From contig NZ_JANLCK010000001.1 in assembly GCF_024979315.1 (NCBI RefSeq), positions 372,001 to 436,000 on the forward strand: 64,000 nucleotides of DNA. The letters are read 5' to 3'. Each line of letters opens with the position of its first letter. Position 1 is the first letter of the stretch. Below, in pieces: positions 2,971 to 9,342 of this stretch. A program made the position numbers and the translations under genes. Origin of the DNA: Herbiconiux oxytropis (GTDB lineage: Bacteria; Actinomycetota; Actinomycetes; Actinomycetales; Microbacteriaceae). The notes beneath the pieces were generated by a model that saw only the letters and a program-made list of their open reading frames with translations, was not told the DNA's origin and ran no database searches.

Positions 2971-3228
2971 ATGGCAATCGACGACGACGACATCACGACC
3001 GACGCCGCCGCGGGCGGCGAGGGGACCGCCGACGGCGGAGCGAACCCGGGCGGGCACGACGGCGGAGCCGACGGCTCGGCTGCCGGCGGCGAGGGCCCGG
3101 CCGACGGCGGAGCCAACCCCGACGGCCACGACGGCGGAGCCGACGGCTCGGCCGACGAGGGAGAGGGTCCGGCCGACGGCGGAGCCAACCCCGGTGGCCA
3201 CGACGGCGGGGCCGACGGCTCGGCGTGA
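2971..3228 (+). CDS. Repeat-containing acidic small protein, possible modified-peptide precursor
   Basis: An 85-residue protein with an acidic leader (MAIDDDDITTDAA) followed by three tandem 24-residue units (residues 14-37, 38-61, 62-85). Each unit has the form GEG(T/P)ADGGANP(G/D)GHDGGADGSA, and the last ends exactly at the stop codon. It contains almost only Gly, Ala, Asp, Glu, Asn, Pro, His and Ser, with one His per repeat and no Cys. AGGAGA lies four bases before the ATG. The TGA overlaps the GTG of the JmjC-cupin gene (GTGA), implying coupled translation. It lacks any catalytic fold. The architecture, short leader plus identical cores next to an oxygenase, suggests a substrate peptide; that is inference. 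A disordered or structural protein is the alternative. Confidence 0.7.
   Translation: MAIDDDDITTDAAAGGEGTADGGANPGGHDGGADGSAAGGEGPADGGANPDGHDGGADGSADEGEGPADGGANPGGHDGGADGSA
3010..3225 (+). repeat. Three tandem 72-bp coding repeats
   Basis: Units at 3010-3081, 3082-3153 and 3154-3225 are in frame and encode the 24-residue repeat of the small protein. Divergence is greatest at the start of each unit (ACC/CCG at Thr/Pro; Ala-Gly against Asp-Glu). The second half of each unit, encoding GHDGGADGSA, is nearly invariant. The repeat array stops exactly at the termination codon. Confidence 0.9.
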
Positions 3229-4559
3229 CACTCGATTCCGTGCGCGGAACGACGGGCGGGCCGGGATCGGGTGACACCGACGCCCGGCCCGCGCTGTCGC
3301 GCTGCATAGACGTCTCCCCCGACACCTTCGCTGCGGAGTACTGGGGGCGCCGGGCGCTGCTCTCGCCCGCCTCGGGCCTGCACGCCGACTTCTCCGACCT
3401 GTTCAGCGCCTCGGCGGTCGACGAACTCGTGCGGGAGCGCGGCCTCCGCACCCCCTTCATCCGCATGGCGCACGAAGGATCGGTGCTGCCGCCCGCCTCG
3501 TTCACCGCCTCCGGGGGCTTCGGCGCCGAGGTCGGCGACCAGGTGAGCTCGGAGAAGGTGCTCGCCGAGTTCGCGGCCGGAGCCACCATCGTGCTGCAGG
3601 GGCTGCACCGCGTGTGGCCCCCGCTGATCGACTTCACGAGGCGCCTTGTCGACGACATCGGGCATCCGGCGCAGGTGAACGCGTATGTGACTCCGGCGTC
3701 GTCCCGCGGCTTCGACCCCCACTACGACGTGCACGACGTGTTCGTGCTGCAGATCGCCGGCGAGAAGCACTGGCGCATCCACGCTCCCGTGCACCCGGAT
3801 CCGCTCCGCGACCAGCCGTGGACCGACCACAAGGCCGCCGTCGCCGAAGCGGCGCTCGGCGAGCCCGTGATCGACGCTGTGCTGCGGCCGGGCGACGCGC
3901 TCTACCTGCCGCGCGGCTGGATCCACTCGGCGACGGCGCTCGGCGGCACCTCCGTGCACCTCACCGTGGGAATGTCGGCGTACACGCGGGCCGATGTGGT
4001 GCGGGCTCTGGTCTCGACGCTCGGCGCGCACGAGTCGCTCCGTGAGTCGCTGCCGCTCGGGGTCGACTGGGCCGATGCAGAGGCTGTGCGGCCTGTCGTC
4101 GAGCAGGTCGTGGGCGAGATGGTGGCGGCGCTCACCGGTGGCGGCACGCGCGTGAGCCCAGCCGCTGACTCCGGTGCCGGTGCTGGCGCTGATGCCCAGG
4201 ATGCTCTGGTCTCCCGCACGCTCGCACGCAGATTCGCCGAGGCGACTCGGCCCGAACCCGTCGCTCCGCTCGCCACGATCGATGCGATCGCGTCGCTCGG
4301 GGCGGCCTCGGTGGTGCGGTGGCGGGGATCGCTCGCCGCTCGCGTCGAGTCGCTGCCCGGTGACGACGGCGCATCCGGAAAGGTGCGGATAATCACGCCC
4401 TCGAAGTCGCTCACGCTCCCGGGAGAGACCGAGGCCGCCGTGCGCCGGCTGCACGAGGGCGGCCCCGTGCCGCTCGCCGAACTGCCGGGGCTCGACGACG
4501 CCGACGCCGTGGTGGTGGTGCGCCGGTTGCTGCGCGAGGGCATCCTGGTGCCGGCGTGA
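3225..4559 (+). CDS. JmjC-domain cupin oxygenase (ROX/NO66/YcfD-like)
   Basis: A 444-residue protein of the cupin_4/JmjC family, Fe(II)- and 2-oxoglutarate-dependent protein hydroxylases. The N-terminal part (FAAEYWGRRALL, about residues 35-46) matches the family. The metal triad is visible as H166 and D168 in FDPHYDVHDVF and H234 in LPRGWIHSA. KHWRIH at about 181-186 probably contacts the cosubstrate. A C-terminal winged-helix-like extension (VVVVRRLLREGILV) fits ribosomal oxygenases. Known relatives hydroxylate Arg or His of ribosomal proteins. The GTG start at 3225 overlaps the stop of the repeat-peptide gene, and a sucrase/ferredoxin-like gene follows after ten bases. Target protein unknown; the adjacent peptide is a candidate. 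Confidence 0.85.
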   Translation: MTLDSVRGTTGGPGSGDTDARPALSRCIDVSPDTFAAEYWGRRALLSPASGLHADFSDLFSASAVDELVRERGLRTPFIRMAHEGSVLPPASFTASGGFGAEVGDQVSSEKVLAEFAAGATIVLQGLHRVWPPLIDFTRRLVDDIGHPAQVNAYVTPASSRGFDPHYDVHDVFVLQIAGEKHWRIHAPVHPDPLRDQPWTDHKAAVAEAALGEPVIDAVLRPGDALYLPRGWIHSATALGGTSVHLTVGMSAYTRADVVRALVSTLGAHESLRESLPLGVDWADAEAVRPVVEQVVGEMVAALTGGGTRVSPAADSGAGAGADAQDALVSRTLARRFAEATRPEPVAPLATIDAIASLGAASVVRWRGSLAARVESLPGDDGASGKVRIITPSKSLTLPGETEAAVRRLHEGGPVPLAELPGLDDADAVVVVRRLLREGILVPA

Positions 4560-4569
4560 GAGCTGCGGC

Positions 4570-5472
4570 GTGACCATCGAGTGGCGGCCGTGCAGCGATC
4601 GCGCTCGCGAGCGCGACGATCCGCTCGTGGCCACCGGGTCGCGCGGGCTGCAGTGGTTCCTGGTCGAGATCTCGGGCGCCTGGGGCACGCGGGCGTTCCT
4701 CGATCCGCCGTTCGACACCGAGCTGGGGCGTGCGCTCGTGACGCGCATCGAGGCGGCCGGGATGCGACCGCTCGCCATCCGCCGCACCGGTCGTCGCGAG
4801 GCGCAGACCACGTGGCGCTGGGCCTTCGTCGACTCCCGTCCCGGCCACGAGGTGGTGCGCTGGGGCGAGGTCGGCTCCCCCGCCGAGCTGCTCGAGGTGC
4901 CGCTCGACGGGTCGACGGGCGCGGTCTCGGAGCGGCCGCTGTTCGCCGTCTGCGCCCATGCCCGGCACGACCAGTGCTGCGCCGTGCGGGGCCGGCAGGT
5001 GGTCACCCGGCTGGCCGAGGCGTTCCCCGACGAGACCTGGGAGTGCTCGCACCTCGGCGGCGACCGGTTCGCGGGAACGATGGTGCTCTTCCCGCACGGC
5101 CTCTACTACGGCAAGGTCGACGATGCGGATGCCGCGCACGTGGCCGAGGCGTATCTCGACGGGCGGGTGGTGGACGAGTTCTACCGCGGTCGCAGCTCGC
5201 TCACCCACCCCGTGCAGGCCGCGCAGCACTTCGCACGCGAGGAGTTCGGCGACGACGGGCTCGACGCCTATCCCCCACTCGACGAGCGCTGGCACGGAGA
5301 CGGCGATCCCGTCCTGGGGGCGGCGCACTGGACGGTGCGGCTGGGCGATGCGGCGGGGCCCATCACCGTCGAGCTCGCCGAGCACCTGTCGGAGCCCCTG
5401 CTGAGCACCTGCGCCGCCACCCGCTCGGGGCGGGTGCGCCAGTGGGAGCTGCGCGGAATCGCCCGCGACTGA
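4570..5472 (+). CDS. Sucrase/ferredoxin-like thioredoxin-fold [2Fe-2S] protein
   Basis: A 300-residue protein of the sucraseferredoxin-like family. The C-terminal half has the thioredoxin-like ferredoxin pattern: C128 in FAVCAHARHDQCC with C136/C137, and C159 in WECSHLGGDRFAGT, enough ligands for a [2Fe-2S] cluster. C8 in WRPCSD is also typical. The family name is misleading: sucrase activity is doubtful, and electron transfer is the more likely role. The GTG at 4570 begins ten bases after the JmjC-cupin stop, with no strong Shine-Dalgarno, which suggests coupled translation. In context it could supply electrons to the oxygenase, for example by keeping its iron ferrous; this is inference. Confidence 0.8.
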   Translation: MTIEWRPCSDRARERDDPLVATGSRGLQWFLVEISGAWGTRAFLDPPFDTELGRALVTRIEAAGMRPLAIRRTGRREAQTTWRWAFVDSRPGHEVVRWGEVGSPAELLEVPLDGSTGAVSERPLFAVCAHARHDQCCAVRGRQVVTRLAEAFPDETWECSHLGGDRFAGTMVLFPHGLYYGKVDDADAAHVAEAYLDGRVVDEFYRGRSSLTHPVQAAQHFAREEFGDDGLDAYPPLDERWHGDGDPVLGAAHWTVRLGDAAGPITVELAEHLSEPLLSTCAATRSGRVRQWELRGIARD

Positions 5473-5537: not shown

Positions 5538-6017
5538 ATGGACGGGGCGCGGTGGTTGACGGCTGAGCAGCTGCGGGCGTGGATCCGCCTCGAGGCCGTC
5601 GTCGAACTCCTGCCCGCCGTGCTCGACTCACAGCTCCAGCGAGACGCCCAGCTCACGCACTTCGAGTACATCGTGCTCGCGAAGCTCTCCGAGACCGACG
5701 GACGGGTGCTGCGGATGACGGCCCTCGCCGCCACCACCAACTCCACGCTCCCCCGCCTCTCCCACGTGGTGAGCCGCCTCGAGGCCCGCGGCTTCGTGGA
5801 GCGCCTCCCCTGCCCCGGCGACCGGCGCGCCACCAACGCCCACCTCACCGACGCCGGCTTCGAGAAGGTCGTCGCGACCGCCCCCGGACACGTGGAGAAC
5901 GTGCGCGAGCACGTGATCGACGCCCTCACCCCCGAGCAGGTCGCGCAGCTCGACACCATCATGGAGACCCTCCTCGAGCGCATCGACCCCGAGAACAGCC
6001 TCCGTCGCCTGCCCTGA
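5538..6017 (+). CDS. MarR-family transcriptional regulator
   Basis: A 159-residue winged-helix protein. The dimerisation helix comes first, then the DNA-binding helices with the family signature: LTHFEYIVLAKLSE, LRMTALAATTNSTLPRLSHVVSRLEARGFVERLPCPGDRRATNAHLTDAG. The wing motif GDRRATN is diagnostic. The ATG is preceded by GGAGG two bases away, so the mRNA may be leaderless. No adjacent enzyme on either side is an obvious target; the upstream ferredoxin-like gene ends 65 bases earlier in the same direction. Ligand unknown. Confidence 0.9.
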   Translation: MDGARWLTAEQLRAWIRLEAVVELLPAVLDSQLQRDAQLTHFEYIVLAKLSETDGRVLRMTALAATTNSTLPRLSHVVSRLEARGFVERLPCPGDRRATNAHLTDAGFEKVVATAPGHVENVREHVIDALTPEQVAQLDTIMETLLERIDPENSLRRLP

Positions 6018-6102: not shown

Positions 6103-9100
6103 TCACACCGTGCGCCGTCGGCGGATCGCGAGACCCGAGAGTCCGGCGAGGAGCAGGGCGGCCGCGACGCCCGCCGGGACCAGCGGTTCGGCTCCGGTGG
6201 AGGCGAGCGTTCCTGTCGGTGTGCTCGACGCCGCGGTGATCGTGATGTCCGCCCAGCCGATGAGCGCGCCGTCGACGCCGACGACCGCGACGCGGTGAGC
6301 CCCGAGGGGAGCCGAGGCCGGGATGGTGACCGAGACCGTGCCCGCCGCCGAGACCACGTGGCGGCCGAGGTTGATCGGCGACGAGTGCAGCCACACGTCG
6401 ACCTGCTCACCCGCGTGGGCCGTGCCCACGGTGACCACCACCGACTGCCCCGCCTGCGCAGTGGCGACAACCGCCACCGAACCGCGCGAGCCCTCGGTGA
6501 GGGCGCTGCCGTCGACCGGCTGCGGCCCGGTCACCACGGGGGTGCCCGGTCCGGTCGGCGCCGGGTCGACCGGGGTCGGCGGAACCGGGGGGTCTGTGGG
6601 GAGGGTCGGTTCACCCGGATCGGTCGGGTCGGTGGGATCGGTCGGGTCAGTCGGGTCCACCGGCGCCTCCGCGCACTCCACAGTGCCGGTGCGCAGGGCG
6701 TGCCCGTCGGTGCCGTTGTCGTCGGACCAGAATGCGGTCTTCGATCCGTCGACGCACTGCGACTGGGGCGCGAGCGCGAACCCCTCGTTGTTGAGGTTCG
6801 GCATGCCCGCGGGCCGCTCGAGCACCTCGGTCACCGCGAACCGACCGCCGGCAGCACCCGCAGAAGCGCCCGCCACGTCGAGCAGTGCGCTGCGGCCGTC
6901 GCAGGTGTCATCGCAGACCGCCCACAGTTCCGAACGCTCCGCATCCCACTCGAGCTCCATCACTCCCGTGAAGCCGCTCGAGATGGTGGCCACGCGGTCG
7001 TGACCACCGGTCGCCTGGTCGAGCGCGTAGGCGTAGACCGTTCCGTTCGCCTCGAGCGCCACGAAGAAGAGGCCCTCGCCGTGGCCGGGGTACAGCGCCG
7101 GGTCGTAGAGCGTGTTCGTGCGCTCGTCGACGAAGCCCTTCTCCACGAGCTCGGCATCCGGAACCCAGGCGATGCCCTCGAGCCCCGCGTTCGCTCCCAC
7201 GACCGGCAGGTCGGCGGCGAGGTTCCACTCCATCGAGGCGGACAGGCCCGCACCGGAGACGGCACTCGCCACGTCGTAGCGCAGCACCGCGGGCCGGCTC
7301 GTGCCCGACACCGAGTTGTCGCGCTCGCTCGACACGAAGACTCCGCCCGCGGGCCCGGCCGAGGTGAATGCGACGCCCTCAGCATCGACGTCGCCCGTGC
7401 CGTCGGCGTAGTGCAGCGGTGTGCCCGCCGCCCAGCCGGCCTCGGCCGTAGGCGCCCACGCCGATCCGGTCCAGTCGAGACGGTAGAGGGTGCCTGGCCC
7501 GTTCTTCACGGCCCAGAGCGTGCCCTCTTCCACCGTCGACGGTGCCGTGCTGGAAGCCTGGTAGGCGAGTCCGCTCATGTTGGTGCCGAAGTACCCCGCC
7601 TCGTCGGCGGTCTCGATCGACACACCGCCGGGCCAGGGCAGCGTCACGAGGTCGCCCTCGCAGGCGTTGGTGGCGCCCTTCGTCGCGGCGGTCGTCACCG
7701 CGAACGGTCCGGTGCCGTCGGGGCAGCGGCCGTAGGTCGTGGCGGCGTGGCCCGCCCAGGTGTGCGAGTCGACGAGCGTCGTGCCGTCGGCGGCGAACAG
7801 CCGCACCGAGTCGTTGGCGCCGAGGCCGTAGCCCGTGTCACCGGCCTCGACATCGACCGCAAGGTAGCCGCCCGCCGCGATGCTCGTGCCGGCGGGGAGC
7901 ACGACGGCGTGGGTGTCGTCACTGTCCTTCAGCACGAAGCCCGAGACATCGACGGCGCCGGCGCCGTTGTTCTTCAGCTCCACCCAGTCGCCGGGCGTTC
8001 CGCCGGAGGACTCAATCTCGTTGATGCGCACGGGAGCGCTGCAGTCGTTCGGCGCGCCCTTCGTGGGCGAGGTCGTGGTGGTGAACTCGCCCGTGGCATC
8101 CGGGCAGCGGCCGTAGGTCGTGGCGGCGTGGCCGTTCCAGGTGTGGGAGTCGATGAGCGTCACGCCGTCGGGGGCGTAGAGGCGCACCGAGTCGGCCGAT
8201 CCGAGGCCGTAGCCGAGAGTGCTCTCGTCGATCGACAGGTAGGCACCGGCGGCGATCGTGGTGCCGGCCGGCAGGGCCGCCGCGTGATTGTCGTCGTTGT
8301 CCTTGACGATCCAGCCGCTCAGGTCGACCGCGTCGGCCGTCGGGTTGACGAGCTCGATCCAGTCGCCGGGCGTGCCGCCCGAAGACTCGACCTCGTTGAT
8401 GCGCACGGCGTCGCCCGGAACCACGACGGGGGCGCAGTCGTTGGCGGCGGCCTTCGTGGCGCTCTCGGTGAGCACGAACTCGCCCGAGCCGTCGGGGCAG
8501 CGGCCGGAGGTGGTGGCGGCGTGGGAGGTCCAGCTGGTGGCGTCGACGAGGGTCGCGCCGTCGGCGCTGAAGACGCGCGCGGTGTCGGCGCCGCCGAGGC
8601 CGAAGCCGCCCTCGACGTCGACGTCGACAGCGGCGAATCCGCCCGCCGGGATGACGGTGCCTGCGGGCACCTGCAGCGAGCGCGAGTCGTTGTCGTCCTT
8701 CAGCACGAGGCCCGACGCATCCACCGGAACGGAGCCGATGTTCATGAGCTCGATCCAGTCGCCGGGCGTGCCGCCGGAGGACTCGACCTCGTTGATGCGC
8801 ACGACCGCGGAGGGGTCGAGGGTGCAGTCGTTCGCGCCGCCGCGGGTGGGCGACACGGTGGCGATGAACTCGCCCACACCGTCGGGGCAACGGCCGTAGC
8901 TCGTGGGCGCGTGCTGGGTCCAGGCCCAGGAGTCGACGAGGGTCGCGCCGTCGGCCAGGTAGAGCCGCACGGTGTCGGCGCGGCCGAGGCCGAACGTCAT
9001 CTCGGGGTCGCCGAACGAGAGGAAGCCTCCCGGCTGGATGACGGAACCGGCAGGCAGCGCGTCGGTGCGCCCGTCGTTGTCGTCGCGCACGATCCAGCCC

Positions 9101-9342
9101 GAGACGTCGACCGCGGCGGATCCGGTGTTCGTGAACTCCACCCAGTCGCCCACGGCGTCGCCGTCGGACTCGATCTCGTTGATGCGGATGTCTGCTGCCC
9201 CGGAGGCTGCCCTCGAGTCAGCCACGGGAACGCCCGCGGCGGAGGCCGTCGAGGCGCCCAGCGGCGACAGCGCCGCCAGGAGCGGGACCGCGAGAGCGGT
9301 CGAGACGAGGAGCGCGGCGTTCTTCCGCCAGTGGTTTCGCAT
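6103..9342 (-). CDS. Secreted surface protein with four lamin-tail domains and an LAXTG-type anchor
   Basis: A 1079-residue exported protein. The signal peptide is residues 1-36 (RKNA, hydrophobic core LLVSTALAVPLLAAL, cleavage near ASA). Four lamin-tail (LTD) domains occupy about 51-173, 181-303, 313-434 and 438-561; each has (R)INEIES..G..GDWVEL near its start and YGRCPDG..GEF..T near its end. About 565-900 resembles an esterase-like/SdiA-regulated propeller (GVEGIAW-type and NLNNEGFALAPQS motifs). A Pro-Thr-Asp spacer (PTDPTDPTD) and an Ig-like stretch follow. The C-terminus has LASTG, a hydrophobic helix and RRRR, an LAXTG sorting signal suited to class E sortases. LTD proteins often accompany extracellular nucleases or phosphatases; a nutrient-binding or adhesive surface role is inferred. 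Confidence 0.85.
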   Translation of the reverse strand: MRNHWRKNAALLVSTALAVPLLAALSPLGASTASAAGVPVADSRAASGAADIRINEIESDGDAVGDWVEFTNTGSAAVDVSGWIVRDDNDGRTDALPAGSVIQPGGFLSFGDPEMTFGLGRADTVRLYLADGATLVDSWAWTQHAPTSYGRCPDGVGEFIATVSPTRGGANDCTLDPSAVVRINEVESSGGTPGDWIELMNIGSVPVDASGLVLKDDNDSRSLQVPAGTVIPAGGFAAVDVDVEGGFGLGGADTARVFSADGATLVDATSWTSHAATTSGRCPDGSGEFVLTESATKAAANDCAPVVVPGDAVRINEVESSGGTPGDWIELVNPTADAVDLSGWIVKDNDDNHAAALPAGTTIAAGAYLSIDESTLGYGLGSADSVRLYAPDGVTLIDSHTWNGHAATTYGRCPDATGEFTTTTSPTKGAPNDCSAPVRINEIESSGGTPGDWVELKNNGAGAVDVSGFVLKDSDDTHAVVLPAGTSIAAGGYLAVDVEAGDTGYGLGANDSVRLFAADGTTLVDSHTWAGHAATTYGRCPDGTGPFAVTTAATKGATNACEGDLVTLPWPGGVSIETADEAGYFGTNMSGLAYQASSTAPSTVEEGTLWAVKNGPGTLYRLDWTGSAWAPTAEAGWAAGTPLHYADGTGDVDAEGVAFTSAGPAGGVFVSSERDNSVSGTSRPAVLRYDVASAVSGAGLSASMEWNLAADLPVVGANAGLEGIAWVPDAELVEKGFVDERTNTLYDPALYPGHGEGLFFVALEANGTVYAYALDQATGGHDRVATISSGFTGVMELEWDAERSELWAVCDDTCDGRSALLDVAGASAGAAGGRFAVTEVLERPAGMPNLNNEGFALAPQSQCVDGSKTAFWSDDNGTDGHALRTGTVECAEAPVDPTDPTDPTDPTDPGEPTLPTDPPVPPTPVDPAPTGPGTPVVTGPQPVDGSALTEGSRGSVAVVATAQAGQSVVVTVGTAHAGEQVDVWLHSSPINLGRHVVSAAGTVSVTIPASAPLGAHRVAVVGVDGALIGWADITITAASSTPTGTLASTGAEPLVPAGVAAALLLAGLSGLAIRRRRTV
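7660..9192 (-). repeat. Four tandem lamin-tail domain repeats (about 370-390 bp each)
   Basis: Domain-length tandem repeats within the surface-protein gene, at roughly 9192-8824, 8802-8434, 8406-8041 and 8031-7660. The second to fourth share near-identical starts (RINE(V/I)ESSGGTPGDW) and ends (RCPDG and a TKGA/TKAA-N-x-C close). Each has one Cys in the RCPD motif and one near the end, probably forming a disulphide. Confidence 0.85.

Follow-up and report, generated by a model that had tools for sequence, protein, structure and literature searches.

An aspartate-repeat peptide gene overlapping a NO66-like JmjC cupin gene: a conserved operon of Herbiconiux and other Actinomycetota with a putative peptide-modifying oxygenase

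CanE is an Fe/2-oxoglutarate (2OG) aspartate hydroxylase of a lasso peptide, and to our knowledge few substrates are known for the bacterial relatives of the human ribosomal oxygenases. JmjC-type enzymes are also encoded with precursors of ribosomally synthesised and post-translationally modified peptides (RiPPs). According to two reports, BipG, a JmjC protein predicted and tested as an ornithine hydroxylase, and the cupin-like PbsQ act on ornithine in the short RiPP precursor of the biphenomycins, each as one of several tailoring enzymes that include a multinuclear non-haem iron-dependent oxidase (MNIO), an arginase, a radical S-adenosylmethionine (SAM) enzyme and a protease (PMC12707348, PMC12257519). 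A further source describes the JmjC protein FIH (factor inhibiting HIF) as a hydroxylase of Asn, Asp and His, with some of its targets in repeat domains (PMC9994133). Here we analysed a 64,000-nucleotide stretch of the Herbiconiux oxytropis genome (contig NZ_JANLCK010000001.1, positions 372,001 to 436,000; referred to as the window), in which an acidic repeat peptide, a JmjC cupin of the NO66 type and a sucrase/ferredoxin-like (Suc_Fer-like) protein are encoded in one operon. On balance, we lean towards reading the peptide as the dedicated substrate of the overlapping oxygenase, either a RiPP-like precursor or a small modified repeat protein, with Asp as the residue most probably hydroxylated.

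Comparison with the ribosomal oxygenases NO66 (RIOX1), MINA53 (RIOX2; MINA below) and YcfD revealed that the cupin, like them, keeps the Fe(II) triad, the 2OG lysine and the equivalents of NO66 Asn326 and Tyr328. Unlike NO66, it replaces Arg297 and Ser421, and its gene overlaps that of a dedicated Asp-repeat peptide; we know of no ribosomal target for a cupin of this type. The arrangement resembles that of BipG and PbsQ, by description and not by sequence, in that a JmjC-type oxygenase is encoded with a putative precursor peptide, but no other obvious modifying enzyme stands beside the window cupin, whose peptide is an Asp-rich repeat array. With CanE, likened to it by described activity only, the cupin would share an Asp of a ribosomal peptide as target, although the substrate of CanE is a lasso peptide. 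The likeness to FIH lies in a JmjC hydroxylase meeting repeats; FIH is a human enzyme and its ankyrin repeats are folded, whereas the repeats of the window peptide are Gly-rich and probably disordered. No published account of the peptide-cupin pair or of the trio was found in the open-access literature, in agreement with the earlier note on this DNA, made from the sequence alone, whose author was likewise unaware of any earlier description of these three genes together. Each component belongs to a known kind; what seems new is their combination into a minimal system of two genes, one of them for an Asp-repeat peptide.

Analysis of the window confirmed the layout given in that note: an 85-residue peptide with a 13-residue acidic leader and three 24-residue repeats, the third ending exactly at the stop codon, a GTG start of the cupin gene that overlaps this stop as GTGA, and a Suc_Fer-like gene that starts ten bases past the cupin stop (Table 1). 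The GTGA overlap suggests that peptide and cupin are translationally coupled. Tandem Repeats Finder reported the array at 3013-3224 with a period of 72, 2.9 copies, 88% matches and a score of 319, and the genome of the window holds a single match each for the peptide, the cupin and the Suc_Fer-like protein. The peptide matched no Pfam or NCBIfam family up to an E value of 1. In a gap-free alignment of 13 genes from the family of the window, the ratio of nonsynonymous to synonymous changes (pN/pS) was 0.178 in the annotated frame; of the five remaining frames, four gave 2.2-2.7, and the minus frame with the same third codon positions gave 0.28. The peptide is thus conserved as a translated protein under purifying selection. 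Eighteen relatives are 74-99% identical to the window peptide, whereas the cupins of 18 relatives, largely from the same loci, are 46-74% identical to the window cupin. The number of repeats ranges from two (L021, L060 and L065; here and below, L numbers denote loci, G numbers genomes and f numbers families) to many (L086 and L091), the variation that the earlier note had proposed to look for. A leader motif, L/I/V-x-D/E-D/E-...-I/M-x-T, composed after the sequences had been inspected, occurs in 48 of the 75 peptides of the class set (the first match lies outside the peptide proper in L080, L125 and L126) against 1.8% of shuffles, and in all 10 peptides from outside the class against 3.1% of shuffles; the remaining 27 class-set peptides do not match it. 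The shared N-terminal motif and the variable number of repeats look like a leader with a repetitive core, supporting the RiPP-like architecture proposed earlier. As with RiPPs, a small gene of leader/core type stands beside a gene for a modifying enzyme, which would act on the peptide.

The linkage of peptide and cupin was surveyed across genomes. When 100 genomes were drawn evenly from the window's family and every peptide candidate was scored, the peptide was present in 13, and strong cupin matches (524-732 bits) were present in exactly those 13; one distant cupin of 117 bits was found besides (G034). The peptide open reading frame (ORF) lies directly upstream of the cupin gene in all 13 genomes and also in nine named loci from Herbiconiux, Agromyces and others, which partly represent the same organisms as the family draw (L007 equals L014 in sequence); the contig of L002 starts inside the peptide. 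Among 394 genomes of the class, 129 gave a cupin match at E ≤ 1e-15, comprising a high group of 63 (at least 328 bits), one cupin cut by the contig end (G195) and 65 of lower score. All 63 high-group cupins are preceded by an acidic ORF, with DGGAD repeats in 58 cases and other Asp repeats in three (L106, L109 and L110). Starts of the class peptides were chosen automatically, leaving foreign residues in L055, L080 and L102 and a cut peptide in L105, and only the DGGAD and HDGG counts were used. A peptide profile of 15 rows, 14 of them from the same class draw and matching by construction and one from the window, gave hits in 53 of the 394 genomes, where the peptide always adjoins a cupin on the same strand with a gap of -50 to 234 bases (median 47); both class scans scored some candidates per genome, and a lone peptide elsewhere could escape them. 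Outside the class (198 genomes of the phylum), 10 more cupins were found at E ≤ 1e-60, all 10 with upstream Asp repeats such as DADGTDGDATDGTDGD. Among the lower-scoring class cupins, 25 of the 65 were examined at one locus each: 12 adjoin Asp repeats such as (SDGTD)n, 11 of these belonging to a single family (f34), six adjoin a peptide of 35-38 residues, and two adjoin RiPP-precursor-like ORFs (L113 and L117). The recurrence of the pair in many distant bacteria of the phylum suggests that the enzyme modifies the peptide chemically. At one locus (L108, G371), two fragments in different frames make up the cupin match, and the upstream repeat peptide is open.

A profile of 70 cupins matched NO66 at 1e-53, aligned to positions 15-414 of the 417-residue chain, MINA at 5e-39 and YcfD at 2e-15; together with the JmjC_2 match of the window cupin, the NO66 match supports the earlier assignment to the JmjC protein hydroxylases. 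The protein is predicted to have the ribosomal oxygenase order, with dimerisation and winged-helix regions after the JmjC domain. The iron triad H166-x-D168...H234, described as intact in the earlier note, and the 2OG lysine K181 are identical in all 70 aligned cupins, and so are the equivalents of NO66 N326, Y328, H340, D342, K355 and H405, as judged by eye from printed alignments; His340, Asp342, Lys355 and His405 of NO66 are its catalytic (Fe/2OG) positions. Because these residues are identical in 70 of 70 sequences, the cupin should be an active 2OG oxygenase. In a study of NO66 that names Asn326, Tyr328, Arg297 and Ser421, Tyr328 contacts the substrate His, Ser421 forms a hydrogen bond with this His, and Arg297 contacts Asn215 of the ribosomal peptide (PMC4556315). 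The equivalent of Ser421 is Gly in 67 of the 70 cupins and that of Arg297 is Val in 69, and these NO66 substrate contacts are therefore missing from the cupin. The two replacements predict a substrate pocket different from that of NO66, which would suit a substrate other than a ribosomal His. Two arginines, R80 (invariant in all 70) and R129 (65 of 70), may bind the acidic peptide. The cupin would recognise the peptide, probably via its acidic N-terminal leader, and would then hydroxylate side chains of the repeats, with C-beta of Asp as the most likely position; this order of events, like the fate and function of the product, we infer.

The hydroxylated residue would most likely be Asp, giving beta-hydroxyaspartate, because Asp, mostly in repeats, is common to all peptides of this peptide family. 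The constant feature is Asp, with Gly, Ala, Ser or Thr as the usual spacer residues, while Asn in the repeats is confined to some lineages. Hydroxylation of the His (or Asn) of NPxGHDGGADGSA, as in NO66 and MINA, appears distinctly improbable, although several observations accord with it: both enzymes are His hydroxylases and NO66 acts on a Gly-rich peptide (PMC9994133, PMC4556315), and the equivalent of Tyr328, the contact to the substrate His, is kept in every cupin aligned. Each of the 19 aligned family peptides has the His-Asp pair in both of its first two repeats (H29, D30, H53 and D54), and the G014 variant, which lacks Asn, is no exception; in the third repeat, L019 has Asn at the position of His, and L021 has no third repeat. 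Across the class, however, HDGG occurs in 41 of the 63 peptides, the other 22 carrying QDGG, SDGG or plain DGGA arrays (pure DGGA in L091), and the Asp repeats examined in other clades lack it. On the cupin tree, HDGG (37 of 59 high-group rows) requires 12 changes, of which strongly supported branches impose at least five; the tree omits rows with internal stops, below 300 residues or cut (L068, L071, L073, L108 and L111), and its long branches are unsure. With these counts, His was rejected as a universal hydroxylation site. The conserved His-Asp core of the earlier note thus holds within the family and fails across the class, and neither His nor Asn, which it had considered as targets, is as general as Asp. 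DGGAD in 58 peptides and Asp repeats in three more, compared with HDGG in 41, together with the change of Ser421 to Gly and of Arg297 to Val, point to Asp rather than His.

The linkage could also be explained if the peptide were a disordered acidic partner that serves the cupin in another way (as its regulator, its stabiliser, an Fe/Ca chaperone or a mimic of the substrate) and the true substrate lay elsewhere, for example in a ribosomal protein. We consider this unlikely while giving it serious weight: the nearest solved relatives of the cupin are ribosomal oxygenases, low-complexity Asp/Gly repeats resemble an ion-binding or disordered tail, and the number and sequence of the repeats drift widely at constant acidity; the lack of a recurring protease or transporter gene, described below, fits it too. 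The strong conservation of the repeats per residue within the family, where the peptides vary less than the cupins, argues against such a partner, as does the loss of the NO66 residues that hold the ribosomal peptide; in addition, two distant cupins adjoin other RiPP-precursor-like peptides with transporter and peptidase genes. That the ORF is a GC-rich DNA repeat or an attenuator-like leader before the cupin gene, with no product of interest, is hardly credible: the ORF is small, of low complexity and without a database family, but its purifying selection is frame-specific, its start region and leader motif are conserved, and it recurs with differing DNA and amino-acid repeats at constant acidity. 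The reading of the peptide as substrate has weaknesses of its own. A non-substrate acidic partner would yield an identical linkage, and a comparison of 20 family loci, covering ORFs from 90 residues upwards within about 4 kb on each side, showed no recurring protease or transporter, so the locus is not a classical secreted RiPP cluster; genes for leader removal and export are not strictly required of RiPPs. Two of the 63 close cupins (G180 and G370; loci L102 and L105) follow a non-repetitive acidic ORF that overlaps the cupin gene, and among the 25 distant cupins four have no acidic ORF (L114, L131, L133 and L137) and one a weak one (L138). In the window's family, His-Asp is conserved as well as the other Asp residues, which bears on the choice of Asp, and the ribosomal targets known to us are His for NO66 and MINA and Arg for YcfD, with no Asp among them. 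AlphaFold2 on the cupin with nine sequences gave a mean predicted local distance difference test (pLDDT) score of 46, too low for docking of the peptide. The earlier note had named homologous cupins regularly lacking the peptide gene as evidence that would count against its proposal; none was found in the close clade, where all 63 have an acidic upstream ORF, and the exceptions fall among the distant cupins. Its modified-peptide interpretation keeps the conserved unit, the JmjC type of the enzyme and the RiPP-like architecture, and loses the general His-Asp core.

The Suc_Fer-like protein of the window matches PF06999 at 65 bits, against a cut-off of 34.9; a phmmer search against solved structures returned a best E value of 0.79, to an unrelated protein. 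Residues C128, C136, C137, C159 and H161 are invariant in 10 sequences and are candidate cluster ligands. In the 100 family genomes, PF06999 occurs in 12, each time beside the operon, and G055 has the operon without PF06999. PF06999 as an exclusive partner of the operon, which holds for these 100 genomes, was rejected for the class, where 214 of the 394 genomes have it (by hand count, 60 of 63 operon genomes and 154 of 331 others); in three of the 63 operon genomes PF06999 was found nowhere. The Suc_Fer gene is adjacent in 52 of the 63 close-cupin operons, with single-query search and profile in agreement, in nine of the 10 cupin loci from outside the class and at all 12 lower-scoring class loci with Asp repeats. 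Of the 20 family loci, all contain the cupin gene and 19 the Suc_Fer gene; frames that hold the peptide recur at 12, and a MarR-type gene at five. The peptide, cupin and Suc_Fer-like genes recur together across relatives, consistent with the single unit proposed earlier. 2OG oxygenases draw electrons from 2-oxoglutarate, and the Suc_Fer-like protein would be an accessory redox or iron-handling partner and not an electron source needed by the cupin.

A large clade of ribosomal-oxygenase-like enzymes with a likely substrate in the same operon opens the substrate question to direct testing with no more than two small genes. Should the repeats be hydroxylated, the operon would represent a widespread minimal RiPP-like system of one precursor and one enzyme, and could supply 2OG oxygenases with natural repeat substrates; several beta-hydroxy-Asp residues on one peptide, if present, would form a new gene-encoded metal-binding polymer. 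A bolder extension, which we regard as a long shot, is that ribosomally synthesised poly-(beta-hydroxyaspartate) peptides exist throughout the phylum, with the NO66-type oxygenase placing many beta-hydroxy-Asp residues on Asp-Gly repeats; the product would be a genetically encoded, tunable intracellular Fe/Ca binder with a dedicated ferredoxin-like partner, perhaps an iron buffer dependent on O2 and 2OG.

Table 1. Features of the operon and the adjoining regulator gene (window coordinates)
Feature	Position	Strand	Remark
Acidic repeat peptide, 85 aa, putative precursor/substrate	2971..3228	+	No Pfam/NCBIfam match up to E 1
13-residue N-terminal segment MAIDDDDITTDAA, leader-like	2971..3009	+	Motif common to most relatives
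Three 24-residue repeats, core-like, EGxADGGANPxGHDGGADGSA	3010..3225	+	
NO66-like JmjC cupin, 444 aa, predicted Fe(II)/2-oxoglutarate oxygenase	3225..4559	+	Pfam JmjC_2 6e-30
Suc_Fer-like (sucrase/ferredoxin-like) protein, predicted [2Fe-2S]	4570..5472	+	PF06999 1.3e-17
MarR-family regulator gene, directly past the trio	5538-6017	+	

Two loci with distant cupins look like RiPP clusters and would again offer Asp (DPDPSD and DNDPSD). At L173:7928-14267 (G451), a 45-residue precursor-like ORF, MAETKTLKMDEIQVETAPAADPQFLICDPDPSDDCWIVCNPNYCY, ending CDPDPSDDCWIVCNPNYCY, is accompanied by a JmjC_2 cupin, an ABC transporter and an S9 peptidase. At L190:3772-9095, on the Streptomyces clavuligerus plasmid NZ_CP065235.1, a 48-residue ORF (DNDPSDPP...DPDPFDPVI) precedes a JmjC_2 cupin, and genes for an S9 peptidase and an ABC transporter lie close by; the cluster may be of a related type. 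Relatives of this 48-residue peptide were found in 0 of 148 genomes by a search without a positive control. The peptide of 35-38 residues mentioned above is conserved in one family (f24; L115, L130, L132, L134, L135 and L136), ends like TAGGDNDGTDSSSDFI and lies 74-141 bases before the distant cupin, with a prolyl oligopeptidase gene upstream at all six loci; an FhuF-like protein is encoded near the cupin at two of the six, the other four having short flanks only. The distant cupin of G034 (L174:8474-12002) is flanked by a nitroreductase-family protein that by eye resembles SagB and by a major facilitator superfamily (MFS) transporter, possibly in a RiPP cluster. A plasmid search returned 167 records with a cupin match, with identities of at most 34.3% among the 30 matches listed, and no Asp-repeat operon was present at the three plasmid loci examined (H1, H23 and H26). 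On a plasmid of Streptomyces sp. NBC_00435 (L192:3956-8768), tandem cupin-domain genes are followed by genes for an MFS transporter and an M13 metallopeptidase. Beyond the operon and its regulator gene, the minus strand of the window at 6103-9342 encodes a protein of 1079 residues with four Lamin Tail Domains (PF00932, 2e-55) and a phytase-like domain, in which a LASTG-like C-terminal anchor and a basic tail were recognised by eye.

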